Below, piece by piece: positions 7,670 to 30,571 of a stretch of DNA of 64,000 nucleotides. Location: the NCBI GenBank assembly GCA_030407315.1, contig JALQPE010000250.1, positions 1 through 64,000 on the forward strand, written 5' to 3'. The notes beneath the pieces were generated by a model. The model was not told the DNA's origin. It worked only from the letters and a program-made list of their open reading frames with translations, and did no database searches. Within the stretch, counting starts at the first letter, position 1. Each line of letters begins with the position of its first letter. The position numbers and the translations under genes were made by a program. The stretch comes from Asparagopsis taxiformis. Its lineage: Eukaryota > Rhodophyta > Florideophyceae > Bonnemaisoniales > Bonnemaisoniaceae.

Positions 7670-8202
7670 TTGGACATGAAGGTATTCTTCAAACCCACCA
7701 ACAAATTATTATACTTGCCTGCTGCAAGCTCTCACCCTGGATCTATGAAAACAGGAATCATCATAGGAGAAGCTATACGATGCTTGAGAAATACAAGCCA
7801 AAAAGCTGAATGGCTGAAAGCTCTTCACTATATCTTCAAAGGACTTCTGAGAAGAGGATATGATGCCAACACCATCAAGAAGAAATGGAAACAAATTAAG
7901 TTCGAGCAGCGAACGAAACTAATTGAAACAAATTCAGTTAGAGAAAAACCAACAAGAGAAATCGTGACAACGCGATACAACAATAGCACATTTTTCCACT
8001 GGAAAAAATACTGATCAAGCTCCCCATCAAAGGAGTCCTGATCGACAGAAAACTCGGCGTCTATAACAAGAAGCAACAGGAAATTATCAACAATTGGCCC
8101 CCGCAAATAGTATATGGAGACTTTGCTAAACTTGGAAAGAAGCTCATCTCCGCCAAGGCCACTTGGGACTACTCCTTACTGCAGAAAAATCATTCATCCT
8201 GA
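7670..8202 (+). pseudogene. 3' fragment of PLE-A reverse transcriptase, frameshifted
   Basis: It corresponds to the C-terminal ~177 codons of the full RT, starting at the FFKPTNK region. An A-run at 8003-8008 has six A instead of the seven in all other copies, so the frame breaks after about 114 residues. The catalytic core (including YIDD) is absent because of the 5' truncation, so this copy cannot encode an active enzyme. Confidence 0.9.
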
Positions 8203-8452
8203 AATAAGTGGAGGAAAGCTGTCTTCTTATTGGATAAAAAGCCTGCAAAAATATCCCAAAACCCGCTAACAAACGATTTCCAAAAGGCACGAACCATAAT
8301 AGTTCCTGCCCCACCCACGTGTCATACTGCACTGGCGAGGGAAATTATCAGCCCCATAATAGATGCACAATGACTACATACCACCGCCGCACGGCGAATG
8401 CCCCCTACGATAGGATAAATAGTAGAATTTGGTAGCCACCAACGATACGGCA

Positions 8453-8501
8453 GGTAGGAGCTGAAGAAGATTTGATAAAAATCGAAACGTTCTCCGCTAC
8501 C
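8453..8501 (+). ncRNA. Hammerhead ribozyme, PLE-A copy 1
   Basis: Identical to the ribozyme described at 11562-11610. The catalytic box CTGAAGA begins at 8461. It lies about 250 nt after the RT stop. Confidence 0.8.
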
Positions 8502-8753
8502 TCACCGCCAAAGGTACTAGCCAATATCAGGTCCACCACAAGAAAGGTTGACCAAAATATCCTATTACCCCAGTGGTCTTCAGGAAACCCCGAAGACAAC
8601 CTTGGAAGCCCCTAGGATTGCCAAAACGATCCCCCAAAACCATCTGCCGCACAGCACCCCAAAACAACATTTGCCCAAATCCCCTATCAAAGGAATTCCA
8701 TTCTGGAAAGAAGCCAGCTGCCAGGTGTACAAGATCAACGCAAACCAAGGAAA

Positions 8754-9611
8754 ATGTCAGACCCAGGGTCGAAAAGACTTCGACTTCAACAGGCACTCAT
8801 GGGAACTACCAAACAGGCAGTAACCTCACCGCCCAAATGGACAGACAACATGATGAAATCTCATCTCACAGATGCAGGACATATGTTCAAGAAAATATGT
8901 GCGAAAGAATCAACCATCAAAAAGCTGAATGAACACATAGAGAAAGGAACAGTCCCGCGAAGCCTACGTTTGAACATCAAAGTTATGGTAACAAAAGAAC
9001 TTCAACAATCGATGAACGAAATTGTAGTACGGGCTGAGAAGGAATTTCATAGTCAAGTGATGAATGGTCTACTACAAGCCCGAAAAAAGGAATTGGATGA
9101 CATGAGAAAATCACTGACACTAAAAGAGCGAACCTGGAAAGATGAAACATACAATATTCTTATGCAACTACAGAGTGAAGGTCTATATAGAGACACACAC
9201 AGCTCGCCCGAACAGGACCTCGTCGAATGGACAAAAATTCTGGAAACGAAACAAACCACTCTGGAAAAAGAAATTCGCACCGAAGATCTCCTAAAGCGTA
9301 GAGCTCAGGAAATCGCAAGAAATGAACGGGAATCTATTGTACAAGAGGAAAGAGTTAACCAACTCCTGGACAACTCAGCAATTAATGCCCTCGAAAATAA
9401 GGTACAAATGCTGGAACAAAAGCTAAACAAAACCAACCCGAAAAAAGAACAGGCCAAGCCTCAGAAAGGTGGAGGCCAGAACAAACCTCAAGCGAAAAAG
9501 AAAAAAATTCCGAAGAAGAAAGAAAAAGGAAGGAAGGCAAAGGCCGGACGCGAAAACGAAAAGCCAGAACACAAGCCTGCCTCTCGGCGTTCAACACGCC
9601 GATCGGAATAA
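8754..9611 (+). CDS. PLE-A ORF1: coiled-coil, lysine-rich protein (285 aa)
   Basis: The ATG at 8754 lies in a good context (aaggaaaATGtc), about 70 nt into the unit. No enzymatic domain is visible. The N-terminal ~60 residues are mixed. Residues ~60-225 are rich in E, K, Q, L and R with heptad-like spacing, ending in ENKVQMLEQKLNKT, so a long coiled coil is likely. Residues ~230-285 are extremely basic (KKKKIPKKKEKGRKAKAGR, then RRSTRR), suited to RNA or DNA binding or nuclear localisation. Coiled-coil ORF1 proteins accompany Athena-type telomeric PLEs (family knowledge); here the role as an RNP structural protein is inferred. The last ~211 nt overlap the RT reading frame in the -1 register. 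Confidence 0.85.
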   Translation: MSDPGSKRLRLQQALMGTTKQAVTSPPKWTDNMMKSHLTDAGHMFKKICAKESTIKKLNEHIEKGTVPRSLRLNIKVMVTKELQQSMNEIVVRAEKEFHSQVMNGLLQARKKELDDMRKSLTLKERTWKDETYNILMQLQSEGLYRDTHSSPEQDLVEWTKILETKQTTLEKEIRTEDLLKRRAQEIARNERESIVQEERVNQLLDNSAINALENKVQMLEQKLNKTNPKKEQAKPQKGGGQNKPQAKKKKIPKKKEKGRKAKAGRENEKPEHKPASRRSTRRSE

Positions 9612-9706
9612 AACTTGAGAAGCTCTCCCCGGAAGCTAAAGCTGTCCTGAAAATTGGACACAAATTTGCTTTCAATGCAGACCTAAAACGGTCGCTCGCT
9701 TTGCTA

Positions 9707-11311
9707 ATGAATAATGTACAGGCAAAATATCAAGGGAGATTCAACGCCCTCTCCAAGAGGGAACAAGATAACTGGAAGAATTGGAAACTGCATGCGCTGA
9801 AATACATCGCACAAATCCCAAACCAGAAACATGACAAACTCTCAAAAATACTAACCAGAGGCATCCAGCACCTGAAAAAAATGGATGTTATCGTGAAAGA
9901 AGCTGACAAAAATTTAGGACTGGTTGCCATGAGAGGTGACATCTACAACGCCATGCTCAGGGAACAGCTACAAGGACCAACCTATCGGAAAGTCCCAGCA
10001 TTTCCACACATGGATATCTTAACTAGGATGAAAAATATCCTGAAATACACTACAAGCGTACCGGCTTGGAAAAAAGAGAAATGGTTACTGCATGCCGAGC
10101 AAGCCAAGGAGCCATGCCATTTCTATATCAACCCCAAGATACATAAGAAAGAACTTGGAGCCAGGCCAATTACACCCCAACATTCATATATGCTAGCTCC
10201 CCTGAGCAAGGAGCTTGCACGAATATTACAAGAGAAAGTGGCTGAAATTGAAGAAATTGCCAACGACTCAAGGGATGTAATACGAAGTTTGGAACGTTTC
10301 AAGACCACAAAGAACTTTGCCTTTGTGACATACGATGTAGAAAAATTATATCCGAACATCGACCTACGTGACGCCATCCAGACACTGGAAAATAACTTGG
10401 ATATCATGAAGATGGACAATTATTTCTGGACCAAAATAATCCAACTAATCATGTACAATAATTTCGTCGAAGCAAGAGGAACAGTCTACCAACAAATGGT
10501 AGGAACGGCAACAGGTACGCAGGTAGCACCGCCCTTTGCCAACCTCTACCTATATTTCAAGTTCAGAGAAATATTGAACAAAGACGAAATATTATACCAG
10601 AGCAGATACATAGATGATGGTCTCCTCATGGTTGATAACATGGCTGCTGGAGAAAAAATAATAGAAGAACTGAACGCAGTATCAAACCTGAGACTAACAT
10701 CAGAAATGAGCACGCAAGAAGCAACTTACCTAGACATAACTGTCTACAAAGGACCCAGATACATTCTGGAAAACAAGTTGGACATGAAGGTATTCTTCAA
10801 ACCCACCAACAAATTATTATACTTGCCTGCTGCAAGCTCTCACCCTGGATCTATGAAAACAGGAATCATCATAGGAGAAGCTATACGATGCTTGAGAAAT
10901 ACAAGCCAAAAAGCTGAATGGCTGAAAGCTCTTCACTATATCTTCAAAGGACTTCTGAGAAGAGGATATGATGCCAACACCATCAAGAAGAAATGGAAAC
11001 AAATTAAGTTCGAGCAGCGAACGAAACTAATTGAAACAAATTCAGTTAGAGAAAAACCAACAAGAGAAATCGTGACAACGCGATACAACAATAGCACATT
11101 TTTCCACTGGAAAAAAATACTGATCAAGCTCCCCATCAAAGGAGTCCTGATCGACAGAAAACTCGGCGTCTATAACAAGAAGCAACAGGAAATTATCAAC
11201 AATTGGCCCCCGCAAATAGTATATGGAGACTTTGCTAAACTTGGAAAGAAGCTCATCTCCGCCAAGGCCACTTGGGACTACTCCTTACTGCAGAAAAATC
11301 ATTCATCCTGA
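9707..11311 (+). CDS. PLE-A reverse transcriptase (Penelope-like, endonuclease-deficient)
   Basis: Copies RNA into DNA, probably primed by a chromosome-end 3' OH. Numbering residues from 9701, PLE hallmarks in order are: EADKNLG (68-73), PKIHK (145-149), YDVEKLYPNI (211-220) with catalytic D212, GTATGTQVAPPFANLYL (268-284), and YIDDG (303-307) with D305 and D306. The protein ends about 230 residues after YIDDG, without GIY-YIG residues. The first ATG is 9707, but the frame is open back to 9401 and overlaps ORF1. The segment just upstream (PIGIKLEKLSPEAK, from 9599) is conserved in PLE-B, so translation probably enters from ORF1 by -1 frameshifting or from a non-ATG start. Telomere attachment and lack of endonuclease match Athena/Coprina elements. 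Confidence 0.95.
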   Translation: MNNVQAKYQGRFNALSKREQDNWKNWKLHALKYIAQIPNQKHDKLSKILTRGIQHLKKMDVIVKEADKNLGLVAMRGDIYNAMLREQLQGPTYRKVPAFPHMDILTRMKNILKYTTSVPAWKKEKWLLHAEQAKEPCHFYINPKIHKKELGARPITPQHSYMLAPLSKELARILQEKVAEIEEIANDSRDVIRSLERFKTTKNFAFVTYDVEKLYPNIDLRDAIQTLENNLDIMKMDNYFWTKIIQLIMYNNFVEARGTVYQQMVGTATGTQVAPPFANLYLYFKFREILNKDEILYQSRYIDDGLLMVDNMAAGEKIIEELNAVSNLRLTSEMSTQEATYLDITVYKGPRYILENKLDMKVFFKPTNKLLYLPAASSHPGSMKTGIIIGEAIRCLRNTSQKAEWLKALHYIFKGLLRRGYDANTIKKKWKQIKFEQRTKLIETNSVREKPTREIVTTRYNNSTFFHWKKILIKLPIKGVLIDRKLGVYNKKQQEIINNWPPQIVYGDFAKLGKKLISAKATWDYSLLQKNHSS

Positions 11312-11561
11312 AATAAGTGGAGGAAAGCTGTCTTCTTATTGGATAAAAAGCCTGCAAAAATATCCCAAAACCCGCTAACAAACGATTTCCAAAAGGCACG
11401 AACCATAATAGTTCCTGCCCCACCCACGTGTCATACTGCACTGGCGAGGGAAATTATCAGCCCCATAATAGATGCACAATGACTACATACCACCGCCGCA
11501 CGGCGAATGCCCCCTACGATAGGATAAATAGTAGAATTTGGTAGCCACCAACGATACGGCA

Positions 11562-11610
11562 GGTAGGAGCTGAAGAAGATTTGATAAAAATCGAAACGTT
11601 CTCCGCTACC
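11562..11610 (+). ncRNA. Type I hammerhead ribozyme (PLE-A, reference copy)
   Basis: Stem I: GGTA+GGAG (11562-11569) pairs with CTCC (11601-11604) and TACC (11607-11610), with a 2-nt GC bulge. Core box CTGAAGA is at 11570-11576. One extra A (11577) follows. Stem II is GATTT/AAATC with a GATAA loop. GAAAC starts at 11593. Stem III is only AC/GT with no loop, then U-U and predicted cleavage after 11600. A palindromic ACGT stem III fits pairing between two ribozymes (dimeric form). Hammerheads are known in Penelope-like elements (Cervera and de la Pena). Placed about 250 nt after the RT stop, it would cut array transcripts into unit-length RNAs. Confidence 0.85.
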
Positions 11611-11862
11611 TCACCGCCAAAGGTACTAGCCAATATCAGGTCCACCACAAGAAAGGTTGACCAAAATATCCTATTACCCCAGTGGTCTTCAGGAAACCCC
11701 GAAGACAACCTTGGAAGCCCCTAGGATTGCCAAAACGATCCCCCAAAACCATCTGCCGCACAGCACCCCAAAACAACATTTGCCCAAATCCCCTATCAAA
11801 GGAATTCCATTCTGGAAAGAAGCCAGCTGCCAGGTGTACAAGATCAACGCAAACCAAGGAAA

Positions 11863-12720
11863 ATGTCAGACCCAGGGTCGAAAAGACTTCGACTTCAACA
11901 GGCACTCATGGGAACTACCAAACAGGCAGTAACCTCACCGCCCAAATGGACAGACAACATGATGAAATCTCATCTCACAGATGCAGGACATATGTTCAAG
12001 AAAATATGTGCGAAAGAATCAACCATCAAAAAGCTGAATGAACACATAGAGAAAGGAACAGTCCCGCGAAGCCTACGTTTGAACATCAAAGTTATGGTAA
12101 CAAAAGAACTTCAACAATCGATGAACGAAATTGTAGTACGGGCTGAGAAGGAATTTCATAGTCAAGTGATGAATGGTCTACTACAAGCCCGAAAAAAGGA
12201 ATTGGATGACATGAGAAAATCACTGACACTAAAAGAGCGAACCTGGAAAGATGAAACATACAATATTCTTATGCAACTACAGAGTGAAGGTCTATATAGA
12301 GACACACACAGCTCGCCCGAACAGGACCTCGTCGAATGGACAAAAATTCTGGAAACGAAACAAACCACTCTGGAAAAAGAAATTCGCACCGAAGATCTCC
12401 TAAAGCGTAGAGCTCAGGAAATCGCAAGAAATGAACGGGAATCTATTGTACAAGAGGAAAGAGTTAACCAACTCCTGGACAACTCAGCAATTAATGCCCT
12501 CGAAAATAAGGTACAAATGCTGGAACAAAAGCTAAACAAAACCAACCCGAAAAAAGAACAGGCCAAGCCTCAGAAAGGTGGAGGCCAGAACAAACCTCAA
12601 GCGAAAAAGAAAAAAATTCCGAAGAAGAAAGAAAAAGGAAGGAAGGCAAAGGCCGGACGCGAAAACGAAAAGCCAGAACACAAGCCTGCCTCTCGGCGTT
12701 CAACACGCCGATCGGAATAA
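11863..12720 (+). CDS. PLE-A ORF1, copy 3
   Basis: 285 aa, identical to the copy 2 product (8754-9611). Intact. Confidence 0.85.
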   Translation: MSDPGSKRLRLQQALMGTTKQAVTSPPKWTDNMMKSHLTDAGHMFKKICAKESTIKKLNEHIEKGTVPRSLRLNIKVMVTKELQQSMNEIVVRAEKEFHSQVMNGLLQARKKELDDMRKSLTLKERTWKDETYNILMQLQSEGLYRDTHSSPEQDLVEWTKILETKQTTLEKEIRTEDLLKRRAQEIARNERESIVQEERVNQLLDNSAINALENKVQMLEQKLNKTNPKKEQAKPQKGGGQNKPQAKKKKIPKKKEKGRKAKAGRENEKPEHKPASRRSTRRSE

Positions 12721-12815
12721 AACTTGAGAAGCTCTCCCCGGAAGCTAAAGCTGTCCTGAAAATTGGACACAAATTTGCTTTCAATGCAGACCTAAAACGG
12801 TCGCTCGCTTTGCTA

Positions 12816-14420
12816 ATGAATAATGTACAGGCAAAATATCAAGGGAGATTCAACGCCCTCTCCAAGAGGGAACAAGATAACTGGAAGAATTGGAAACTGC
12901 ATGCGCTGAAATACATCGCACAAATCCCAAACCAGAAACATGACAAACTCTCAAAAATACTAACCAGAGGCATCCAGCACCTGAAAAAAATGGATGTTAT
13001 CGTGAAAGAAGCTGACAAAAATTTAGGACTGGTTGCCATGAGAGGTGACATCTACAACGCCATGCTCAGGGAACAGCTACAAGGACCAACCTATCGGAAA
13101 GTCCCAGCATTTCCACACATGGATATCTTAACTAGGATGAAAAATATCCTGAAATACACTACAAGCGTACCGGCTTGGAAAAAAGAGAAATGGTTACTGC
13201 ATGCCGAGCAAGCCAAGGAGCCATGCCATTTCTATATCAACCCCAAGATACATAAGAAAGAACTTGGAGCCAGGCCAATTACACCCCAACATTCATATAT
13301 GCTAGCTCCCCTGAGCAAGGAGCTTGCACGAATATTACAAGAGAAAGTGGCTGAAATTGAAGAAATTGCCAACGACTCAAGGGATGTAATACGAAGTTTG
13401 GAACGTTTCAAGACCACAAAGAACTTTGCCTTTGTGACATACGATGTAGAAAAATTATATCCGAACATCGACCTACGTGACGCCATCCAGACACTGGAAA
13501 ATAACTTGGATATCATGAAGATGGACAATTATTTCTGGACCAAAATAATCCAACTAATCATGTACAATAATTTCGTCGAAGCAAGAGGAACAGTCTACCA
13601 ACAAATGGTAGGAACGGCAACAGGTACGCAGGTAGCACCGCCCTTTGCCAACCTCTACCTATATTTCAAGTTCAGAGAAATATTGAACAAAGACGAAATA
13701 TTATACCAGAGCAGATACATAGATGATGGTCTCCTCATGGTTGATAACATGGCTGCTGGAGAAAAAATAATAGAAGAACTGAACGCAGTATCAAACCTGA
13801 GACTAACATCAGAAATGAGCACGCAAGAAGCAACTTACCTAGACATAACTGTCTACAAAGGACCCAGATACATTCTGGAAAACAAGTTGGACATGAAGGT
13901 ATTCTTCAAACCCACCAACAAATTATTATACTTGCCTGCTGCAAGCTCTCACCCTGGATCTATGAAAACAGGAATCATCATAGGAGAAGCTATACGATGC
14001 TTGAGAAATACAAGCCAAAAAGCTGAATGGCTGAAAGCTCTTCACTATATCTTCAAAGGACTTCTGAGAAGAGGATATGATGCCAACACCATCAAGAAGA
14101 AATGGAAACAAATTAAGTTCGAGCAGCGAACGAAACTAATTGAAACAAATTCAGTTAGAGAAAAACCAACAAGAGAAATCGTGACAACGCGATACAACAA
14201 TAGCACATTTTTCCACTGGAAAAAAATACTGATCAAGCTCCCCATCAAAGGAGTCCTGATCGACAGAAAACTCGGCGTCTATAACAAGAAGCAACAGGAA
14301 ATTATCAACAATTGGCCCCCGCAAATAGTATATGGAGACTTTGCTAAACTTGGAAAGAAGCTCATCTCCGCCAAGGCCACTTGGGACTACTCCTTACTGC
14401 AGAAAAATCATTCATCCTGA
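12816..14420 (+). CDS. PLE-A reverse transcriptase, copy 3
   Basis: Intact and identical to the copy 2 RT, including YIDDG. The frame is open upstream to 12510 within ORF1. Confidence 0.95.
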   Translation: MNNVQAKYQGRFNALSKREQDNWKNWKLHALKYIAQIPNQKHDKLSKILTRGIQHLKKMDVIVKEADKNLGLVAMRGDIYNAMLREQLQGPTYRKVPAFPHMDILTRMKNILKYTTSVPAWKKEKWLLHAEQAKEPCHFYINPKIHKKELGARPITPQHSYMLAPLSKELARILQEKVAEIEEIANDSRDVIRSLERFKTTKNFAFVTYDVEKLYPNIDLRDAIQTLENNLDIMKMDNYFWTKIIQLIMYNNFVEARGTVYQQMVGTATGTQVAPPFANLYLYFKFREILNKDEILYQSRYIDDGLLMVDNMAAGEKIIEELNAVSNLRLTSEMSTQEATYLDITVYKGPRYILENKLDMKVFFKPTNKLLYLPAASSHPGSMKTGIIIGEAIRCLRNTSQKAEWLKALHYIFKGLLRRGYDANTIKKKWKQIKFEQRTKLIETNSVREKPTREIVTTRYNNSTFFHWKKILIKLPIKGVLIDRKLGVYNKKQQEIINNWPPQIVYGDFAKLGKKLISAKATWDYSLLQKNHSS

Positions 14421-14670
14421 AATAAGTGGAGGAAAGCTGTCTTCTTATTGGATAAAAAGCCTGCAAAAATATCCCAAAACCCGCTAACAAACGATTTCCA
14501 AAAGGCACGAACCATAATAGTTCCTGCCCCACCCACGTGTCATACTGCACTGGCGAGGGAAATTATCAGCCCCATAATAGATGCACAATGACTACATACC
14601 ACCGCCGCACGGCGAATGCCCCCTACGATAGGATAAATAGTAGAATTTGGTAGCCACCAACGATACGGCA

Positions 14671-14719
14671 GGTAGGAGCTGAAGAAGATTTGATAAAAAT
14701 CGAAACGTTCTCCGCTACC
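14671..14719 (+). ncRNA. Hammerhead ribozyme, PLE-A copy 3
   Basis: Identical to 11562-11610, with predicted cleavage after 14709. Confidence 0.82.
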
Positions 14720-14971
14720 TCACCGCCAAAGGTACTAGCCAATATCAGGTCCACCACAAGAAAGGTTGACCAAAATATCCTATTACCCCAGTGGTCTTCA
14801 GGAAACCCCGAAGACAACCTTGGAAGCCCCTAGGATTGCCAAAACGATCCCCCAAAACCATCTGCCGCACAGCACCCCAAAACAACATTTGCCCAAATCC
14901 CCTATCAAAGGAATTCCATTCTGGAAAGAAGCCAGCTGCCAGGTGTACAAGATCAACGCAAACCAAGGAAA

Positions 14972-15829
14972 ATGTCAGACCCAGGGTCGAAAAGACTTCG
15001 ACTTCAACAGGCACTCATGGGAACTACCAAACAGGCAGTAACCTCACCGCCCAAATGGACAGACAACATGATGAAATCTCATCTCACAGATGCAGGACAT
15101 ATGTTCAAGAAAATATGTGCGAAAGAATCAACCATCAAAAAGCTGAATGAACACATAGAGAAAGGAACAGTCCCGCGAAGCCTACGTTTGAACATCAAAG
15201 TTATGGTAACAAAAGAACTTCAACAATCGATGAACGAAATTGTAGTACGGGCTGAGAAGGAATTTCATAGTCAAGTGATGAATGGTCTACTACAAGCCCG
15301 AAAAAAGGAATTGGATGACATGAGAAAATCACTGACACTAAAAGAGCGAACCTGGAAAGATGAAACATACAATATTCTTATGCAACTACAGAGTGAAGGT
15401 CTATATAGAGACACACACAGCTCGCCCGAACAGGACCTCGTCGAATGGACAAAAATTCTGGAAACGAAACAAACCACTCTGGAAAAAGAAATTCGCACCG
15501 AAGATCTCCTAAAGCGTAGAGCTCAGGAAATCGCAAGAAATGAACGGGAATCTATTGTACAAGAGGAAAGAGTTAACCAACTCCTGGACAACTCAGCAAT
15601 TAATGCCCTCGAAAATAAGGTACAAATGCTGGAACAAAAGCTAAACAAAACCAACCCGAAAAAAGAACAGGCCAAGCCTCAGAAAGGTGGAGGCCAGAAC
15701 AAACCTCAAGCGAAAAAGAAAAAAATTCCGAAGAAGAAAGAAAAAGGAAGGAAGGCAAAGGCCGGACGCGAAAACGAAAAGCCAGAACACAAGCCTGCCT
15801 CTCGGCGTTCAACACGCCGATCGGAATAA
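14972..15829 (+). CDS. PLE-A ORF1, copy 4
   Basis: 285 aa, intact, identical to copy 2. Confidence 0.85.
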   Translation: MSDPGSKRLRLQQALMGTTKQAVTSPPKWTDNMMKSHLTDAGHMFKKICAKESTIKKLNEHIEKGTVPRSLRLNIKVMVTKELQQSMNEIVVRAEKEFHSQVMNGLLQARKKELDDMRKSLTLKERTWKDETYNILMQLQSEGLYRDTHSSPEQDLVEWTKILETKQTTLEKEIRTEDLLKRRAQEIARNERESIVQEERVNQLLDNSAINALENKVQMLEQKLNKTNPKKEQAKPQKGGGQNKPQAKKKKIPKKKEKGRKAKAGRENEKPEHKPASRRSTRRSE

Positions 15830-15924
15830 AACTTGAGAAGCTCTCCCCGGAAGCTAAAGCTGTCCTGAAAATTGGACACAAATTTGCTTTCAATGCAGAC
15901 CTAAAACGGTCGCTCGCTTTGCTA

Positions 15925-17529
15925 ATGAATAATGTACAGGCAAAATATCAAGGGAGATTCAACGCCCTCTCCAAGAGGGAACAAGATAACTGGAAGAATT
16001 GGAAACTGCATGCGCTGAAATACATCGCACAAATCCCAAACCAGAAACATGACAAACTCTCAAAAATACTAACCAGAGGCATCCAGCACCTGAAAAAAAT
16101 GGATGTTATCGTGAAAGAAGCTGACAAAAATTTAGGACTGGTTGCCATGAGAGGTGACATCTACAACGCCATGCTCAGGGAACAGCTACAAGGACCAACC
16201 TATCGGAAAGTCCCAGCATTTCCACACATGGATATCTTAACTAGGATGAAAAATATCCTGAAATACACTACAAGCGTACCGGCTTGGAAAAAAGAGAAAT
16301 GGTTACTGCATGCCGAGCAAGCCAAGGAGCCATGCCATTTCTATATCAACCCCAAGATACATAAGAAAGAACTTGGAGCCAGGCCAATTACACCCCAACA
16401 TTCATATATGCTAGCTCCCCTGAGCAAGGAGCTTGCACGAATATTACAAGAGAAAGTGGCTGAAATTGAAGAAATTGCCAACGACTCAAGGGATGTAATA
16501 CGAAGTTTGGAACGTTTCAAGACCACAAAGAACTTTGCCTTTGTGACATACGATGTAGAAAAATTATATCCGAACATCGACCTACGTGACGCCATCCAGA
16601 CACTGGAAAATAACTTGGATATCATGAAGATGGACAATTATTTCTGGACCAAAATAATCCAACTAATCATGTACAATAATTTCGTCGAAGCAAGAGGAAC
16701 AGTCTACCAACAAATGGTAGGAACGGCAACAGGTACGCAGGTAGCACCGCCCTTTGCCAACCTCTACCTATATTTCAAGTTCAGAGAAATATTGAACAAA
16801 GACGAAATATTATACCAGAGCAGATACATAGATGATGGTCTCCTCATGGTTGATAACATGGCTGCTGGAGAAAAAATAATAGAAGAACTGAACGCAGTAT
16901 CAAACCTGAGACTAACATCAGAAATGAGCACGCAAGAAGCAACTTACCTAGACATAACTGTCTACAAAGGACCCAGATACATTCTGGAAAACAAGTTGGA
17001 CATGAAGGTATTCTTCAAACCCACCAACAAATTATTATACTTGCCTGCTGCAAGCTCTCACCCTGGATCTATGAAAACAGGAATCATCATAGGAGAAGCT
17101 ATACGATGCTTGAGAAATACAAGCCAAAAAGCTGAATGGCTGAAAGCTCTTCACTATATCTTCAAAGGACTTCTGAGAAGAGGATATGATGCCAACACCA
17201 TCAAGAAGAAATGGAAACAAATTAAGTTCGAGCAGCGAACGAAACTAATTGAAACAAATTCAGTTAGAGAAAAACCAACAAGAGAAATCGTGACAACGCG
17301 ATACAACAATAGCACATTTTTCCACTGGAAAAAAATACTGATCAAGCTCCCCATCAAAGGAGTCCTGATCGACAGAAAACTCGGCGTCTATAACAAGAAG
17401 CAACAGGAAATTATCAACAATTGGCCCCCGCAAATAGTATATGGAGACTTTGCTAAACTTGGAAAGAAGCTCATCTCCGCCAAGGCCACTTGGGACTACT
17501 CCTTACTGCAGAAAAATCATTCATCCTGA
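15925..17529 (+). CDS. PLE-A reverse transcriptase, copy 4
   Basis: Intact, identical to the copy 2 RT. The -1 overlap with ORF1 starts at 15619. Confidence 0.95.
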   Translation: MNNVQAKYQGRFNALSKREQDNWKNWKLHALKYIAQIPNQKHDKLSKILTRGIQHLKKMDVIVKEADKNLGLVAMRGDIYNAMLREQLQGPTYRKVPAFPHMDILTRMKNILKYTTSVPAWKKEKWLLHAEQAKEPCHFYINPKIHKKELGARPITPQHSYMLAPLSKELARILQEKVAEIEEIANDSRDVIRSLERFKTTKNFAFVTYDVEKLYPNIDLRDAIQTLENNLDIMKMDNYFWTKIIQLIMYNNFVEARGTVYQQMVGTATGTQVAPPFANLYLYFKFREILNKDEILYQSRYIDDGLLMVDNMAAGEKIIEELNAVSNLRLTSEMSTQEATYLDITVYKGPRYILENKLDMKVFFKPTNKLLYLPAASSHPGSMKTGIIIGEAIRCLRNTSQKAEWLKALHYIFKGLLRRGYDANTIKKKWKQIKFEQRTKLIETNSVREKPTREIVTTRYNNSTFFHWKKILIKLPIKGVLIDRKLGVYNKKQQEIINNWPPQIVYGDFAKLGKKLISAKATWDYSLLQKNHSS

Positions 17530-20888: not shown

Positions 20889-20937
20889 GGTAGGAGCTGA
20901 AGAAGATTTGATAAAAATCGAAACGTTCTCCGCTACC
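20889..20937 (+). ncRNA. Hammerhead ribozyme, PLE-A copy 5
   Basis: Identical to 11562-11610, with predicted cleavage after 20927. Confidence 0.82.
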
Positions 20938-21861: not shown

Positions 21862-22141
21862 ACAAAACCAACCCGAAAAAAGAACAGGCCAAGCCTCAGA
21901 AAGGTGGAGGCCAGAACAAACCTCAAGCGAAAAAGAAAAAAATTCCGAAGAAGAAAGAAAAAGGAAGGAAGGCAAAGGCCGGACGCGAAAACGAAAAGCC
22001 AGAACACAAGCCTGCCTCTCGGCGTTCAACACGCCGATCGGAATAAAACTTGAGAAGCTCTCCCCGGAAGCTAAAGCTGTCCTGAAAATTGGACACAAAT
22101 TTGCTTTCAATGCAGACCTAAAACGGTCGCTCGCTTTGCTA

Positions 22142-23746
22142 ATGAATAATGTACAGGCAAAATATCAAGGGAGATTCAACGCCCTCTCCAAGAGGGAACA
22201 AGATAACTGGAAGAATTGGAAACTGCATGCGCTGAAATACATCGCACAAATCCCAAACCAGAAACATGACAAACTCTCAAAAATACTAACCAGAGGCATC
22301 CAGCACCTGAAAAAAATGGATGTTATCGTGAAAGAAGCTGACAAAAATTTAGGACTGGTTGCCATGAGAGGTGACATCTACAACGCCATGCTCAGGGAAC
22401 AGCTACAAGGACCAACCTATCGGAAAGTCCCAGCATTTCCACACATGGATATCTTAACTAGGATGAAAAATATCCTGAAATACACTACAAGCGTACCGGC
22501 TTGGAAAAAAGAGAAATGGTTACTGCATGCCGAGCAAGCCAAGGAGCCATGCCATTTCTATATCAACCCCAAGATACATAAGAAAGAACTTGGAGCCAGG
22601 CCAATTACACCCCAACATTCATATATGCTAGCTCCCCTGAGCAAGGAGCTTGCACGAATATTACAAGAGAAAGTGGCTGAAATTGAAGAAATTGCCAACG
22701 ACTCAAGGGATGTAATACGAAGTTTGGAACGTTTCAAGACCACAAAGAACTTTGCCTTTGTGACATACGATGTAGAAAAATTATATCCGAACATCGACCT
22801 ACGTGACGCCATCCAGACACTGGAAAATAACTTGGATATCATGAAGATGGACAATTATTTCTGGACCAAAATAATCCAACTAATCATGTACAATAATTTC
22901 GTCGAAGCAAGAGGAACAGTCTACCAACAAATGGTAGGAACGGCAACAGGTACGCAGGTAGCACCGCCCTTTGCCAACCTCTACCTATATTTCAAGTTCA
23001 GAGAAATATTGAACAAAGACGAAATATTATACCAGAGCAGATACATAGATGATGGTCTCCTCATGGTTGATAACATGGCTGCTGGAGAAAAAATAATAGA
23101 AGAACTGAACGCAGTATCAAACCTGAGACTAACATCAGAAATGAGCACGCAAGAAGCAACTTACCTAGACATAACTGTCTACAAAGGACCCAGATACATT
23201 CTGGAAAACAAGTTGGACATGAAGGTATTCTTCAAACCCACCAACAAATTATTATACTTGCCTGCTGCAAGCTCTCACCCTGGATCTATGAAAACAGGAA
23301 TCATCATAGGAGAAGCTATACGATGCTTGAGAAATACAAGCCAAAAAGCTGAATGGCTGAAAGCTCTTCACTATATCTTCAAAGGACTTCTGAGAAGAGG
23401 ATATGATGCCAACACCATCAAGAAGAAATGGAAACAAATTAAGTTCGAGCAGCGAACGAAACTAATTGAAACAAATTCAGTTAGAGAAAAACCAACAAGA
23501 GAAATCGTGACAACGCGATACAACAATAGCACATTTTTCCACTGGAAAAAAATACTGATCAAGCTCCCCATCAAAGGAGTCCTGATCGACAGAAAACTCG
23601 GCGTCTATAACAAGAAGCAACAGGAAATTATCAACAATTGGCCCCCGCAAATAGTATATGGAGACTTTGCTAAACTTGGAAAGAAGCTCATCTCCGCCAA
23701 GGCCACTTGGGACTACTCCTTACTGCAGAAAAATCATTCATCCTGA
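22142..23746 (+). CDS. PLE-A reverse transcriptase, copy 6
   Basis: The RT domain is unchanged and intact. Because of the upstream deletion, the reading frame is open back to at least 21758. That displays in one frame the basic stretch and the conserved PIGIK...SPEAK segment that precede the RT in all copies. Confidence 0.93.
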   Translation: MNNVQAKYQGRFNALSKREQDNWKNWKLHALKYIAQIPNQKHDKLSKILTRGIQHLKKMDVIVKEADKNLGLVAMRGDIYNAMLREQLQGPTYRKVPAFPHMDILTRMKNILKYTTSVPAWKKEKWLLHAEQAKEPCHFYINPKIHKKELGARPITPQHSYMLAPLSKELARILQEKVAEIEEIANDSRDVIRSLERFKTTKNFAFVTYDVEKLYPNIDLRDAIQTLENNLDIMKMDNYFWTKIIQLIMYNNFVEARGTVYQQMVGTATGTQVAPPFANLYLYFKFREILNKDEILYQSRYIDDGLLMVDNMAAGEKIIEELNAVSNLRLTSEMSTQEATYLDITVYKGPRYILENKLDMKVFFKPTNKLLYLPAASSHPGSMKTGIIIGEAIRCLRNTSQKAEWLKALHYIFKGLLRRGYDANTIKKKWKQIKFEQRTKLIETNSVREKPTREIVTTRYNNSTFFHWKKILIKLPIKGVLIDRKLGVYNKKQQEIINNWPPQIVYGDFAKLGKKLISAKATWDYSLLQKNHSS

Positions 23747-23996
23747 AATAAGTGGAGGAAAGCTGTCTTCTTATTGGATAAAAAGCCTGCAAAAATATCC
23801 CAAAACCCGCTAACAAACGATTTCCAAAAGGCACGAACCATAATAGTTCCTGCCCCACCCACGTGTCATACTGCACTGGCGAGGGAAATTATCAGCCCCA
23901 TAATAGATGCACAATGACTACATACCACCGCCGCACGGCGAATGCCCCCTACGATAGGATAAATAGTAGAATTTGGTAGCCACCAACGATACGGCA

Positions 23997-24045
23997 GGTA
24001 GGAGCTGAAGAAGATTTGATAAAAATCGAAACGTTCTCCGCTACC
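23997..24045 (+). ncRNA. Hammerhead ribozyme, PLE-A copy 6
   Basis: Identical to 11562-11610, with predicted cleavage after 24035. Confidence 0.82.
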
Positions 24046-24297
24046 TCACCGCCAAAGGTACTAGCCAATATCAGGTCCACCACAAGAAAGGTTGACCAAA
24101 ATATCCTATTACCCCAGTGGTCTTCAGGAAACCCCGAAGACAACCTTGGAAGCCCCTAGGATTGCCAAAACGATCCCCCAAAACCATCTGCCGCACAGCA
24201 CCCCAAAACAACATTTGCCCAAATCCCCTATCAAAGGAATTCCATTCTGGAAAGAAGCCAGCTGCCAGGTGTACAAGATCAACGCAAACCAAGGAAA

Positions 24298-25155
24298 ATG
24301 TCAGACCCAGGGTCGAAAAGACTTCGACTTCAACAGGCACTCATGGGAACTACCAAACAGGCAGTAACCTCACCGCCCAAATGGACAGACAACATGATGA
24401 AATCTCATCTCACAGATGCAGGACATATGTTCAAGAAAATATGTGCGAAAGAATCAACCATCAAAAAGCTGAATGAACACATAGAGAAAGGAACAGTCCC
24501 GCGAAGCCTACGTTTGAACATCAAAGTTATGGTAACAAAAGAACTTCAACAATCGATGAACGAAATTGTAGTACGGGCTGAGAAGGAATTTCATAGTCAA
24601 GTGATGAATGGTCTACTACAAGCCCGAAAAAAGGAATTGGATGACATGAGAAAATCACTGACACTAAAAGAGCGAACCTGGAAAGATGAAACATACAATA
24701 TTCTTATGCAACTACAGAGTGAAGGTCTATATAGAGACACACACAGCTCGCCCGAACAGGACCTCGTCGAATGGACAAAAATTCTGGAAACGAAACAAAC
24801 CACTCTGGAAAAAGAAATTCGCACCGAAGATCTCCTAAAGCGTAGAGCTCAGGAAATCGCAAGAAATGAACGGGAATCTATTGTACAAGAGGAAAGAGTT
24901 AACCAACTCCTGGACAACTCAGCAATTAATGCCCTCGAAAATAAGGTACAAATGCTGGAACAAAAGCTAAACAAAACCAACCCGAAAAAAGAACAGGCCA
25001 AGCCTCAGAAAGGTGGAGGCCAGAACAAACCTCAAGCGAAAAAGAAAAAAATTCCGAAGAAGAAAGAAAAAGGAAGGAAGGCAAAGGCCGGACGCGAAAA
25101 CGAAAAGCCAGAACACAAGCCTGCCTCTCGGCGTTCAACACGCCGATCGGAATAA
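24298..25155 (+). CDS. PLE-A ORF1, copy 7
   Basis: 285 aa, intact, identical to copy 2. Confidence 0.85.
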   Translation: MSDPGSKRLRLQQALMGTTKQAVTSPPKWTDNMMKSHLTDAGHMFKKICAKESTIKKLNEHIEKGTVPRSLRLNIKVMVTKELQQSMNEIVVRAEKEFHSQVMNGLLQARKKELDDMRKSLTLKERTWKDETYNILMQLQSEGLYRDTHSSPEQDLVEWTKILETKQTTLEKEIRTEDLLKRRAQEIARNERESIVQEERVNQLLDNSAINALENKVQMLEQKLNKTNPKKEQAKPQKGGGQNKPQAKKKKIPKKKEKGRKAKAGRENEKPEHKPASRRSTRRSE

Positions 25156-25250
25156 AACTTGAGAAGCTCTCCCCGGAAGCTAAAGCTGTCCTGAAAATTG
25201 GACACAAATTTGCTTTCAATGCAGACCTAAAACGGTCGCTCGCTTTGCTA

Positions 25251-26855
25251 ATGAATAATGTACAGGCAAAATATCAAGGGAGATTCAACGCCCTCTCCAA
25301 GAGGGAACAAGATAACTGGAAGAATTGGAAACTGCATGCGCTGAAATACATCGCACAAATCCCAAACCAGAAACATGACAAACTCTCAAAAATACTAACC
25401 AGAGGCATCCAGCACCTGAAAAAAATGGATGTTATCGTGAAAGAAGCTGACAAAAATTTAGGACTGGTTGCCATGAGAGGTGACATCTACAACGCCATGC
25501 TCAGGGAACAGCTACAAGGACCAACCTATCGGAAAGTCCCAGCATTTCCACACATGGATATCTTAACTAGGATGAAAAATATCCTGAAATACACTACAAG
25601 CGTACCGGCTTGGAAAAAAGAGAAATGGTTACTGCATGCCGAGCAAGCCAAGGAGCCATGCCATTTCTATATCAACCCCAAGATACATAAGAAAGAACTT
25701 GGAGCCAGGCCAATTACACCCCAACATTCATATATGCTAGCTCCCCTGAGCAAGGAGCTTGCACGAATATTACAAGAGAAAGTGGCTGAAATTGAAGAAA
25801 TTGCCAACGACTCAAGGGATGTAATACGAAGTTTGGAACGTTTCAAGACCACAAAGAACTTTGCCTTTGTGACATACGATGTAGAAAAATTATATCCGAA
25901 CATCGACCTACGTGACGCCATCCAGACACTGGAAAATAACTTGGATATCATGAAGATGGACAATTATTTCTGGACCAAAATAATCCAACTAATCATGTAC
26001 AATAATTTCGTCGAAGCAAGAGGAACAGTCTACCAACAAATGGTAGGAACGGCAACAGGTACGCAGGTAGCACCGCCCTTTGCCAACCTCTACCTATATT
26101 TCAAGTTCAGAGAAATATTGAACAAAGACGAAATATTATACCAGAGCAGATACATAGATGATGGTCTCCTCATGGTTGATAACATGGCTGCTGGAGAAAA
26201 AATAATAGAAGAACTGAACGCAGTATCAAACCTGAGACTAACATCAGAAATGAGCACGCAAGAAGCAACTTACCTAGACATAACTGTCTACAAAGGACCC
26301 AGATACATTCTGGAAAACAAGTTGGACATGAAGGTATTCTTCAAACCCACCAACAAATTATTATACTTGCCTGCTGCAAGCTCTCACCCTGGATCTATGA
26401 AAACAGGAATCATCATAGGAGAAGCTATACGATGCTTGAGAAATACAAGCCAAAAAGCTGAATGGCTGAAAGCTCTTCACTATATCTTCAAAGGACTTCT
26501 GAGAAGAGGATATGATGCCAACACCATCAAGAAGAAATGGAAACAAATTAAGTTCGAGCAGCGAACGAAACTAATTGAAACAAATTCAGTTAGAGAAAAA
26601 CCAACAAGAGAAATCGTGACAACGCGATACAACAATAGCACATTTTTCCACTGGAAAAAAATACTGATCAAGCTCCCCATCAAAGGAGTCCTGATCGACA
26701 GAAAACTCGGCGTCTATAACAAGAAGCAACAGGAAATTATCAACAATTGGCCCCCGCAAATAGTATATGGAGACTTTGCTAAACTTGGAAAGAAGCTCAT
26801 CTCCGCCAAGGCCACTTGGGACTACTCCTTACTGCAGAAAAATCATTCATCCTGA
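25251..26855 (+). CDS. PLE-A reverse transcriptase, copy 7
   Basis: Intact, identical to the copy 2 RT. The overlap with ORF1 starts at 24945. Confidence 0.95.
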   Translation: MNNVQAKYQGRFNALSKREQDNWKNWKLHALKYIAQIPNQKHDKLSKILTRGIQHLKKMDVIVKEADKNLGLVAMRGDIYNAMLREQLQGPTYRKVPAFPHMDILTRMKNILKYTTSVPAWKKEKWLLHAEQAKEPCHFYINPKIHKKELGARPITPQHSYMLAPLSKELARILQEKVAEIEEIANDSRDVIRSLERFKTTKNFAFVTYDVEKLYPNIDLRDAIQTLENNLDIMKMDNYFWTKIIQLIMYNNFVEARGTVYQQMVGTATGTQVAPPFANLYLYFKFREILNKDEILYQSRYIDDGLLMVDNMAAGEKIIEELNAVSNLRLTSEMSTQEATYLDITVYKGPRYILENKLDMKVFFKPTNKLLYLPAASSHPGSMKTGIIIGEAIRCLRNTSQKAEWLKALHYIFKGLLRRGYDANTIKKKWKQIKFEQRTKLIETNSVREKPTREIVTTRYNNSTFFHWKKILIKLPIKGVLIDRKLGVYNKKQQEIINNWPPQIVYGDFAKLGKKLISAKATWDYSLLQKNHSS

Positions 26856-27105
26856 AATAAGTGGAGGAAAGCTGTCTTCTTATTGGATAAAAAGCCTGCA
26901 AAAATATCCCAAAACCCGCTAACAAACGATTTCCAAAAGGCACGAACCATAATAGTTCCTGCCCCACCCACGTGTCATACTGCACTGGCGAGGGAAATTA
27001 TCAGCCCCATAATAGATGCACAATGACTACATACCACCGCCGCACGGCGAATGCCCCCTACGATAGGATAAATAGTAGAATTTGGTAGCCACCAACGATA
27101 CGGCA

Positions 27106-27154
27106 GGTAGGAGCTGAAGAAGATTTGATAAAAATCGAAACGTTCTCCGCTACC
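27106..27154 (+). ncRNA. Hammerhead ribozyme, PLE-A copy 7
   Basis: Identical to 11562-11610, with predicted cleavage after 27144. Confidence 0.82.
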
Positions 27155-27406
27155 TCACCGCCAAAGGTACTAGCCAATATCAGGTCCACCACAAGAAAGG
27201 TTGACCAAAATATCCTATTACCCCAGTGGTCTTCAGGAAACCCCGAAGACAACCTTGGAAGCCCCTAGGATTGCCAAAACGATCCCCCAAAACCATCTGC
27301 CGCACAGCACCCCAAAACAACATTTGCCCAAATCCCCTATCAAAGGAATTCCATTCTGGAAAGAAGCCAGCTGCCAGGTGTACAAGATCAACGCAAACCA
27401 AGGAAA

Positions 27407-28264
27407 ATGTCAGACCCAGGGTCGAAAAGACTTCGACTTCAACAGGCACTCATGGGAACTACCAAACAGGCAGTAACCTCACCGCCCAAATGGACAGACA
27501 ACATGATGAAATCTCATCTCACAGATGCAGGACATATGTTCAAGAAAATATGTGCGAAAGAATCAACCATCAAAAAGCTGAATGAACACATAGAGAAAGG
27601 AACAGTCCCGCGAAGCCTACGTTTGAACATCAAAGTTATGGTAACAAAAGAACTTCAACAATCGATGAACGAAATTGTAGTACGGGCTGAGAAGGAATTT
27701 CATAGTCAAGTGATGAATGGTCTACTACAAGCCCGAAAAAAGGAATTGGATGACATGAGAAAATCACTGACACTAAAAGAGCGAACCTGGAAAGATGAAA
27801 CATACAATATTCTTATGCAACTACAGAGTGAAGGTCTATATAGAGACACACACAGCTCGCCCGAACAGGACCTCGTCGAATGGACAAAAATTCTGGAAAC
27901 GAAACAAACCACTCTGGAAAAAGAAATTCGCACCGAAGATCTCCTAAAGCGTAGAGCTCAGGAAATCGCAAGAAATGAACGGGAATCTATTGTACAAGAG
28001 GAAAGAGTTAACCAACTCCTGGACAACTCAGCAATTAATGCCCTCGAAAATAAGGTACAAATGCTGGAACAAAAGCTAAACAAAACCAACCCGAAAAAAG
28101 AACAGGCCAAGCCTCAGAAAGGTGGAGGCCAGAACAAACCTCAAGCGAAAAAGAAAAAAATTCCGAAGAAGAAAGAAAAAGGAAGGAAGGCAAAGGCCGG
28201 ACGCGAAAACGAAAAGCCAGAACACAAGCCTGCCTCTCGGCGTTCAACACGCCGATCGGAATAA
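27407..28264 (+). CDS. PLE-A ORF1, copy 8
   Basis: 285 aa, intact, identical to copy 2. Confidence 0.85.
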   Translation: MSDPGSKRLRLQQALMGTTKQAVTSPPKWTDNMMKSHLTDAGHMFKKICAKESTIKKLNEHIEKGTVPRSLRLNIKVMVTKELQQSMNEIVVRAEKEFHSQVMNGLLQARKKELDDMRKSLTLKERTWKDETYNILMQLQSEGLYRDTHSSPEQDLVEWTKILETKQTTLEKEIRTEDLLKRRAQEIARNERESIVQEERVNQLLDNSAINALENKVQMLEQKLNKTNPKKEQAKPQKGGGQNKPQAKKKKIPKKKEKGRKAKAGRENEKPEHKPASRRSTRRSE

Positions 28265-28359
28265 AACTTGAGAAGCTCTCCCCGGAAGCTAAAGCTGTCC
28301 TGAAAATTGGACACAAATTTGCTTTCAATGCAGACCTAAAACGGTCGCTCGCTTTGCTA

Positions 28360-29964
28360 ATGAATAATGTACAGGCAAAATATCAAGGGAGATTCAACGC
28401 CCTCTCCAAGAGGGAACAAGATAACTGGAAGAATTGGAAACTGCATGCGCTGAAATACATCGCACAAATCCCAAACCAGAAACATGACAAACTCTCAAAA
28501 ATACTAACCAGAGGCATCCAGCACCTGAAAAAAATGGATGTTATCGTGAAAGAAGCTGACAAAAATTTAGGACTGGTTGCCATGAGAGGTGACATCTACA
28601 ACGCCATGCTCAGGGAACAGCTACAAGGACCAACCTATCGGAAAGTCCCAGCATTTCCACACATGGATATCTTAACTAGGATGAAAAATATCCTGAAATA
28701 CACTACAAGCGTACCGGCTTGGAAAAAAGAGAAATGGTTACTGCATGCCGAGCAAGCCAAGGAGCCATGCCATTTCTATATCAACCCCAAGATACATAAG
28801 AAAGAACTTGGAGCCAGGCCAATTACACCCCAACATTCATATATGCTAGCTCCCCTGAGCAAGGAGCTTGCACGAATATTACAAGAGAAAGTGGCTGAAA
28901 TTGAAGAAATTGCCAACGACTCAAGGGATGTAATACGAAGTTTGGAACGTTTCAAGACCACAAAGAACTTTGCCTTTGTGACATACGATGTAGAAAAATT
29001 ATATCCGAACATCGACCTACGTGACGCCATCCAGACACTGGAAAATAACTTGGATATCATGAAGATGGACAATTATTTCTGGACCAAAATAATCCAACTA
29101 ATCATGTACAATAATTTCGTCGAAGCAAGAGGAACAGTCTACCAACAAATGGTAGGAACGGCAACAGGTACGCAGGTAGCACCGCCCTTTGCCAACCTCT
29201 ACCTATATTTCAAGTTCAGAGAAATATTGAACAAAGACGAAATATTATACCAGAGCAGATACATAGATGATGGTCTCCTCATGGTTGATAACATGGCTGC
29301 TGGAGAAAAAATAATAGAAGAACTGAACGCAGTATCAAACCTGAGACTAACATCAGAAATGAGCACGCAAGAAGCAACTTACCTAGACATAACTGTCTAC
29401 AAAGGACCCAGATACATTCTGGAAAACAAGTTGGACATGAAGGTATTCTTCAAACCCACCAACAAATTATTATACTTGCCTGCTGCAAGCTCTCACCCTG
29501 GATCTATGAAAACAGGAATCATCATAGGAGAAGCTATACGATGCTTGAGAAATACAAGCCAAAAAGCTGAATGGCTGAAAGCTCTTCACTATATCTTCAA
29601 AGGACTTCTGAGAAGAGGATATGATGCCAACACCATCAAGAAGAAATGGAAACAAATTAAGTTCGAGCAGCGAACGAAACTAATTGAAACAAATTCAGTT
29701 AGAGAAAAACCAACAAGAGAAATCGTGACAACGCGATACAACAATAGCACATTTTTCCACTGGAAAAAAATACTGATCAAGCTCCCCATCAAAGGAGTCC
29801 TGATCGACAGAAAACTCGGCGTCTATAACAAGAAGCAACAGGAAATTATCAACAATTGGCCCCCGCAAATAGTATATGGAGACTTTGCTAAACTTGGAAA
29901 GAAGCTCATCTCCGCCAAGGCCACTTGGGACTACTCCTTACTGCAGAAAAATCATTCATCCTGA
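28360..29964 (+). CDS. PLE-A reverse transcriptase, copy 8
   Basis: Intact, identical to the copy 2 RT. The overlap with ORF1 starts at 28054. Confidence 0.95.
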   Translation: MNNVQAKYQGRFNALSKREQDNWKNWKLHALKYIAQIPNQKHDKLSKILTRGIQHLKKMDVIVKEADKNLGLVAMRGDIYNAMLREQLQGPTYRKVPAFPHMDILTRMKNILKYTTSVPAWKKEKWLLHAEQAKEPCHFYINPKIHKKELGARPITPQHSYMLAPLSKELARILQEKVAEIEEIANDSRDVIRSLERFKTTKNFAFVTYDVEKLYPNIDLRDAIQTLENNLDIMKMDNYFWTKIIQLIMYNNFVEARGTVYQQMVGTATGTQVAPPFANLYLYFKFREILNKDEILYQSRYIDDGLLMVDNMAAGEKIIEELNAVSNLRLTSEMSTQEATYLDITVYKGPRYILENKLDMKVFFKPTNKLLYLPAASSHPGSMKTGIIIGEAIRCLRNTSQKAEWLKALHYIFKGLLRRGYDANTIKKKWKQIKFEQRTKLIETNSVREKPTREIVTTRYNNSTFFHWKKILIKLPIKGVLIDRKLGVYNKKQQEIINNWPPQIVYGDFAKLGKKLISAKATWDYSLLQKNHSS

Positions 29965-30214
29965 AATAAGTGGAGGAAAGCTGTCTTCTTATTGGATAAA
30001 AAGCCTGCAAAAATATCCCAAAACCCGCTAACAAACGATTTCCAAAAGGCACGAACCATAATAGTTCCTGCCCCACCCACGTGTCATACTGCACTGGCGA
30101 GGGAAATTATCAGCCCCATAATAGATGCACAATGACTACATACCACCGCCGCACGGCGAATGCCCCCTACGATAGGATAAATAGTAGAATTTGGTAGCCA
30201 CCAACGATACGGCA

Positions 30215-30263
30215 GGTAGGAGCTGAAGAAGATTTGATAAAAATCGAAACGTTCTCCGCTACC
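30215..30263 (+). ncRNA. Hammerhead ribozyme, PLE-A copy 8
   Basis: Identical to 11562-11610. Predicted cleavage after 30253 lies about 190 nt upstream of the telomere-like junction. The element's 3' end at the junction is therefore not the ribozyme cut site of a linear monomer. Confidence 0.82.
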
Positions 30264-30440
30264 TCACCGCCAAAGGTACTAGCCAATATCAGGTCCACCA
30301 CAAGAAAGGTTGACCAAAATATCCTATTACCCCAGTGGTCTTCAGGAAACCCCGAAGACAACCTTGGAAGCCCCTAGGATTGCCAAAACGATCCCCCAAA
30401 ACCATCTGCCGCACAGCACCCCAAAACAACATTTGCCCAA

Positions 30441-30571
30441 ATCCCTAATCCCCTAATCCCCTAAATCCCCTAATCCCCTAAAAAATCCCTAATCCCTAAA
30501 ATCCCTAATCCCCTAATCCCCTAAATCCCGTAATCCCTAATCCCCTAAATCCCCTAAAAATCCCCCTAATG
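30441..30571 (+). repeat. Interstitial telomere-like repeat tract (C-rich on +)
   Basis: About 130 bp of irregular units: ccctaat, cccctaat, cccctaaat, and a few with extended A runs. The plus strand is C-rich, as at a left chromosome end reading inward. The tract directly follows the sense-strand 3' end of PLE-A copy 8. Confidence 0.88.

Follow-up and report, generated by a model that had tools for sequence, protein, structure and literature searches.

How does a retroelement come to lie in a long head-to-tail array beside telomere-like DNA? This question is raised by a 64,000-nucleotide stretch of Asparagopsis taxiformis (positions 1 to 64,000 of contig JALQPE010000250.1; the window, contig C250), which was analysed together with the genome assembly (141.5 Mb, 3,156 contigs). 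Judged by its sequence features, the array belongs to a putative endonuclease-lacking Penelope-like element (PLE) with two open reading frames (ORFs) and a hammerhead-like motif. An earlier note on this DNA had explained the array by one event, in which a telomere served as primer on a unit-length RNA, circular and hammerhead-processed, around which the reverse transcriptase (RT) travelled many times. We prefer, at a probability of roughly 0.5, a multi-unit linear RNA on which the telomeric overhang primes internally, with DNA-level expansion later, to a circle copied more than seven times.

The array, assigned to a family that we call A, occupies positions 7670-30445 as head-to-tail units with a period of 3109/3108 bp, and its parts are as follows.

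7670..8684, + strand: partial family-A unit, its left side cut by another transposon (sequence comparison)
8685..11793, + strand: leftmost full unit (unit 1), 3109 bp
11794..14902, + strand: full unit 2
14903..18011, + strand: full unit 3
18012..21120, + strand: full unit 4
21121..24228, + strand: full unit 5, 3108 bp, with a 1-nt A-run deletion and a frame shift in the ORF1/ORF2 overlap
24229..27337, + strand: full unit 6
27338..30445, + strand: full unit 7, telomere-proximal
30429..30447, + strand: array 3' end, with the telomere-complementary priming site AAATCCC and the start of telomere-like DNA
30446..30571, + strand: telomere-like tract, C-rich strand, read as an old chromosome end

Base-by-base comparison of the seven full units, a number derived from the assembly of identical repeats, gave no substitutions, the A-run deletion in unit 5 being the sole internal difference, and the partial unit matched unit 7 with no mismatches and one gap of 1 nt. 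All seven unit-unit junctions were identical (GCCCAAATCCCC joined to TATCAAAGG), whilst the last unit ends in GCCCAAATCCC followed by TAATCCCC and passes into a tract of the CCCCTAA(T) type. The window array is real, and its description in the earlier note, as near-identical units and a partial one in constant head-to-tail period with the right end at telomere-like sequence, was borne out. That the assembler made the unit number or the array itself is improbable. Contigs C2578 and C2579 do consist of array throughout, contig ends inside arrays are noisy and the left junction of the C250 array lies at a high-copy repeat, but several contigs from three families, with clean telomere junctions, are concordant and array-specific variants exist.

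Each unit carries two overlapping frames and one hammerhead-like motif, of which the following were annotated.

27269..28264, + strand: ORF1 frame of 331 aa between stops, reading through the unit junction
28054..29964, + strand: ORF2, 636 aa, stop to stop, RVT_1 by domain search, no GIY-YIG found
8460..8494, + strand: hammerhead-like motif (GCTGAAGA..TCGAAACGTTCTC), partial unit
11569..11603, + strand: hammerhead-like motif, unit 1
14678..14712, + strand: hammerhead-like motif, unit 2
17787..17821, + strand: hammerhead-like motif, unit 3
20896..20930, + strand: hammerhead-like motif, unit 4
24004..24038, + strand: hammerhead-like motif, unit 5
27113..27147, + strand: hammerhead-like motif, unit 6
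30222..30256, + strand: hammerhead-like motif, unit 7, whose predicted cut precedes the priming site by 193 nt

The family search with ORF1, 331 aa between stops and 269 aa in unit 5, gave nothing better than E = 0.41, and ORF2 (636 aa, 671 aa in unit 5) matched the reverse transcriptase family RVT_1; the A lost from unit 5 shifts the frame where the two overlap. No match to GIY-YIG (PF01541) was found in either ORF up to E = 1. The RT is constrained, with a pN/pS of 0.33 over 299 codons between family A and a divergent copy on C1003. At least 118 protein relatives were listed from 8,000 candidates scored, 103 of them close (38-62 % identity) and 15 distant by a boundary of our own choosing (P0103/P0104), and three of the 15 distant relatives listed fuse an RT to GIY-YIG (P0109, P0111, P0116). 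Because the relatives include such fusions and the element's own ORFs contain no recognizable GIY-YIG, we tentatively assign it to the PLE type without endonuclease. Among the metagenome relatives listed, the longest contig of the cluster measured 3.0-4.15 kb, close to one unit, for 73/103 of the close (P0001-P0103) versus 7/15 of the distant. Collapsed tandem arrays or circles would produce such a size, but the figures are suggestive only. One relative came from genome contigs (25 % identity), none was confirmed in viral contigs, and a search of solved structures gave no match.

The hammerhead-like motif pattern matched the genome exactly 67 times, eight of them in the C250 array, against none for the reversed control; an Rfam search returned no hammerhead match. 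Single-strand folds formed stems I and II in families A, B and C, and not clearly in a fourth, D. Stem III is a loop-less palindrome, AACGTT, in keeping with the minimal hammerhead type of PLEs, and the motif of every unit holds the hammerhead core. A conserved hammerhead-like core is predicted in all four families, so the self-cleaving ribozyme ascribed to each unit in the earlier note stands at the level of a motif. Unit lengths are 3109, 3130 and 3376 bp, with two ORFs each, and the predicted cut lies 193 (A), 295 (B) or 467 nt (C) 5' of the priming site. In all three of these families the ORF1 frame is already open at the base following the AATCCCC site, and in A it reads through the site as well.

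The motif was used for a census of copies, which by its nature counts those with the exact pattern, copies with a differing motif escaping it. Twenty loci were found, with motif numbers in brackets.

Family A: C250 (8), C316 (6), C1003, C2588
Family B: C442 (3), C865 (3), C1114 (2), C2578 (14), C2579 (11)
Family B, single motifs: C740, C901, C908, C2013, C2014, C2877, C2934
Family C: C581 (8), C556
Family D: C250 (41925), C842

C2578 and C2579, made up wholly of array, show no 3' end. At 16 of the 18 remaining loci, spread over families A-D, the 3' end was AATCCC(C) followed by telomere-like DNA, in tracts that extend over hundreds of bases at one extreme and are short or broken at the other (C740/C2013/C2014, C901). 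C740, C2013 and C2014 have a common flank, as does the D pair, leaving 13 loci; with two motif-less copies (C1779 and a 27-bp tail in C442) these make 15 distinct attachments in four families. Their flanks differ and their tracts diverge within the first ~30 letters, and therefore the attachments are not copies of one junction. For family D, of which no unit junction was seen, the 3' end is compatible with the site only. The recurrence of AATCCC(C) supports telomere priming at one internal site, as the earlier note had suggested for AAATCCC(C), and the genome-wide check that it had called for thus found 3' ends that are fixed and not random.

The left end of the array proved to be of another kind. 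The earlier note had taken it for the point inside a gene where reverse transcription stopped; position 7669 is instead the exact terminus of a high-copy transposon.

4699..7669, + strand: right-hand part of a high-copy transposon, terminus 7669, which interrupts the array and is not part of it (match search, site comparison)

Searching with positions 6200-7669 gave a list of 40 matches, the window's own included, from 40 scored of 1,514 candidates, and all round to 100 % over 1,470 bp. At 9/9 sites inspected (window included) the transposon stops at the same base and the sequences diverge beyond; therefore, the C250 array has been cut by another transposon, and the partial unit is uninformative on where reverse transcription stopped. 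The single 5' truncation is thereby ruled out as a sign of one event. Array sequence expected beyond the transposon was not found in the assembly outside known copies: the 27-mer just 5' of the cut had 14 exact matches, all in C250 (7), C316 (6) and C1003 (1). C316 was rejected as the missing left half, since it possesses a telomere tract of its own and its three clean units carry two fixed differences.

Products with an observable 5' end were found on four contigs that end in telomere repeats with a PLE outermost (C1779, C901, C2934 and C442), their caps consisting of 99-100 % telomere-like words versus 3 % in unit B. They hold five 5'-truncated, telomere-capped events.

C1779: capped copy, 196 bp, family A
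C901: capped copy, 406 bp, family B
C2934: capped copy, 437 bp, family B
C442: capped array, 6,669 bp, family B, reading telomere, 409-bp partial unit, two full units, AATCCCC, telomere
C442, deeper in the tract: tail of 27 bp between two telomere tracts, family B

No telomere-capped 5' end was seen at the C250 array. The C442 array comprises 2.13 units, seamless and with telomere repeats on both sides, and is a direct exemplar of a multi-unit product bounded by telomere, as well as a better test locus than the window. It agrees with the earlier note in pointing to one continuous multi-unit template, and is no proof of a circle. A nested case of separate telomere additions, single units each time, does exist in the 27-bp tail, but as the source of the arrays such additions are very improbable: no telomere repeats lie between units in C250, C316 (10001-10899 excepted), C442, C581, C865, C1114, C2578 or C2579.

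Whether the template was linear or circular is addressed by the 5' ends. From a linear monomer cut at the motif, no more than 193 (A), 295 (B) or 467 nt (C) could be copied; therefore, the template of C442, C901 and C2934 ran through the motif. The capped B copies begin at unit positions 2694, about 2722, 2725 and 3104, so that three of four fall within ~33 nt, with a chance probability of 0.0015 for uniform ends and 0.037 for ends at C-runs only (0.0003 and 0.010, respectively, for the three clustered ends alone). Four ends are few, yet the clustering favours an RNA whose 5' end is fixed a short way upstream of the motif, as a promoter in the pseudo-LTR would give. This reading fits by analogy the scenario for a PLE with GIY-YIG in the available passages of PMC11167929, namely a multi-copy mRNA, an internal start and a hammerhead dispensable in vitro.

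The circular template of the earlier note is possible and not preferred; we consider it unlikely. It would account for seamless junctions that are uniform in the arrays inspected except for three read-noise variants, for a hammerhead-like motif in 4/4 families, for the seven substitution-free units of C250, for the multi-unit C442 product with telomere at either side and for the C1779 5' end, 3 nt from the predicted cut, and it would overcome the shortness of a cut linear monomer, too short to template a unit. A circle has no end, however, at which the B 5' ends could cluster, and nested variants common to neighbouring units in C581 (below) are impossible from one unchanging template. Hammerhead mutants were without effect on insertion in vitro in the PLE described in PMC11167929, and the left end of the C250 array, which had been part of the argument, is a transposon. 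The hammerhead cut was also rejected as a general 5' end, only C1779 lying close to it.

Variation between units bears on how much of an array arose in one pass. In the B1 arrays (C865, C442, C2578, C2579), 24 of 29 full units had no substitutions relative to the C865 reference unit, and the remaining five, toward contig ends, each carry between 14 and 62 indels. The variants of C1114 are peculiar to it, the same six substitutions occurring in both units over the stretch covered by both. The A arrays of C250 and C316 differ at two sites, constant in the seven C250 units (one site being lost in the unit-5 deletion) and constant in the three clean C316 units. In C581 the units change outward from the telomere at four substitution sites and then at three more, and the five clean units beyond are identical. 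The C581 nested series therefore implies that there was no single unchanging template, and the claim that all units of an array came from one pass does not hold for this family C array. Duplication of mutated units, template switching or copying of a graded transcript could each have produced the series. A strong variant gradient in C316 was considered and withdrawn, since position 229 is ambiguous in its unit 4 and its unit 5 falls within the noise of a contig end. Since its units are without substitutions, the C250 array is not datable by variants, and its seven units may be owed in any proportion to seamless copying, up to seven-plus rounds in one event, and to later DNA-level duplication.

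These patterns are also relevant to a mainly DNA-level origin, in which one to two units, inserted by telomere priming, were then amplified on the spot through unequal sister exchange or break-induced replication. We regard this explanation as less likely than our preferred one. Nested variant blocks in C581, and more weakly in C316, are in its favour, as is the contrast between capped events that are mostly short (27, 196, 406 and 437 bp, and one of 6,669) and arrays of 6 to 14 motifs. However, it leaves the first seamless dimer unmade, most B1 units and all those of C250 are variant-free, and the dimer-plus of C442 is flanked on both sides by telomere. Replacement and silent changes were no help: the ratio was 5:2 in C581 and C316 versus 1:6 in the B lineages with ORF-overlap sites excluded (Fisher p 0.10), and an earlier contrast of 6:2 versus 1:6 (p 0.04) was discarded as it counted an ORF-overlap site on one side only.

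Our preferred reading, multi-unit linear RNA with internal telomere priming, would run in four steps, and the probability of about 0.5 given above applies to this sequence as the best explanation for a telomere-attaching, endonuclease-lacking PLE. An array would first give rise to RNA longer than one unit, the structure suggesting a promoter in the 3' part of the upstream unit. The G-rich 3' overhang of a telomere would then anneal at the AATCCCC unit junction and be extended outward by the element's RT, a mechanism suggested by the 3' positions observed, including that in the window. Copying would pass more than two units seamlessly, halt and be capped by telomerase, a product seen once, in C442. 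Finally, unequal exchange or break-induced copying may lengthen and homogenise arrays, which later transposons would break, as at 7669.

Several observations weigh against this reading. The two loci among the 18 that end without site or telomere, C1003 and C2588, are divergent A-like copies (95 %). Telomere is minimal at C1779, where only TAAA lies past the site, and at C740/C2013/C2014 and C901 with their short or broken stretches. Only one capped multi-unit event was seen, that of C442, and the fourth capped B end (the 27-bp tail, position 3104) falls outside the cluster. The A copy on C1779 differs from the B copies in that its 5' end is at the hammerhead motif, 3 nt before the predicted cut, and so fits a processed RNA better. 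Finally, the DNA-level step is invisible in C250 and in the 24 substitution-free B1 units.

Coprina is a name for the endonuclease-deficient PLEs of fungi, plants and protists, and the HeT-A, TART and TAHRE elements of Drosophila have the polarity seen here, with the 3' end toward the chromosome interior. Endonuclease-deficient PLEs with a C-rich stretch near the hammerhead, telomere attachment, telomere-truncated 5' ends and head-to-tail arrays have been published (PMC6431247), and the array is a variant form of these known telomeric elements. The Terminons/Athena of bdelloid rotifers likewise have an RT without the usual GIY-YIG, a hammerhead motif and, at the 3' end, a stretch in reverse complement to the telomere; they attach to the G-rich overhang, are cut short at the 5' end by telomere repeats and are reported in head-to-tail arrays (PMC6431247). 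Terminons, however, are giant composite units of up to 40 kb with extra genes, whereas the units here are 3.1-3.4 kb with two ORFs, and 193-467 nt separate the predicted cut from the site downstream of it, which is set in a seamless junction with no telomere repeats between units. The elements of fungi, plants and protists, compared by description in the available passages of PMC3846280 and PMC12477314, are also telomere-associated and without endonuclease. PAc of Anolis, a GIY-YIG PLE, shares tandem organisation, a hammerhead, an internal RT start and a proposed multi-copy mRNA, but it encodes an endonuclease and nicks AT-rich DNA, and the relevant passages of PMC11167929 report no telomeric location. 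HeT-A, TART and TAHRE also form head-to-tail arrays at chromosome ends, with a non-LTR RT and with telomerase lost, as outlined in parts of PMC12477314, whereas here the copies sit on telomerase-type repeats and are capped by them. Retrozymes share the hammerhead motif and the circular RNA idea but, as portrayed in passages of PMC7761336 and PMC9695139, are non-autonomous and encode no RT; here ORF2 encodes one.

Notable in this genome are seamless multi-copy arrays beside telomere repeats at several places and one whole multi-copy insertion with telomere on both sides. To our knowledge, neither the formation of tandem PLE copies nor the use of chromosome ends by PLEs without endonuclease is settled. 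In this genome attachments at a single nucleotide are numerous, capped products occur in both short and multi-unit form and three families have long arrays, so that the priming site, the length of the template, its 5' end and any later amplification are separable. If the circular model were true, the RT would act like a giant telomerase, adding a whole 3-kb genome repeatedly in one run, and satellite-like subtelomeric arrays would be direct reverse-transcription products, C442 a short one and C250 a long one. A literature search, mostly of search listings and passages, found no paper proposing telomere-primed multi-round copying of circular PLE RNA.

A second PLE lies to the right of the array.

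39674..42071, + strand: second PLE, family D, 5'-incomplete, RT 55 % identical to A over 409 aa
41925..41959, + strand: hammerhead-like motif, family D
42072..42154, + strand: second telomere-like tract, at the family D 3' end

The A and D telomere-like ends of C250 make two former chromosome ends 12 kb apart. The family D locus is also found on C842, where the motif search gave no family-A motif. At six of seven interior loci looked at (window 39673; C2877, C2588, C556, C740/C2013/C2014, C908; not C1003), AGG lies beyond the PLE 5' junction. One dispersed element, ending GTCGAGGAATATAATA, is common to three interior loci and occurs also on C865, again followed by AGG, beside non-PLE DNA. As three of the seven adjoin this element, the interior single copies were unusable as a source of RT stops. 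The 5' neighbour on C556 is a related dispersed element (82 % over ~300 bp, near a similar terminus), and the DNA adjoining the C908, C740 and C1003 copies gave no identification. On the reverse strand of C901 (L056), a further 5'-truncated PLE-like stretch, RT-like by eye, lies behind the family-B tail, with a short telomere-like tract before it.

Minor features concern the remainder of the window and the transposon. The high-copy transposon has internal repeats of ~389/503 bp (window 1-7669), and a 1434-aa frame at 30-4334, which may belong to it, had no Pfam or NCBIfam match. From C865:11868 onward (L035), the telomere tract beside the B array directly adjoins a truncated copy of this transposon, a border that looks as if a broken chromosome had been healed. 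A near-perfect inverted repeat at window 30977-31054 matched several miRNA precursor models weakly, below cut-offs, and is probably a small foldback element.

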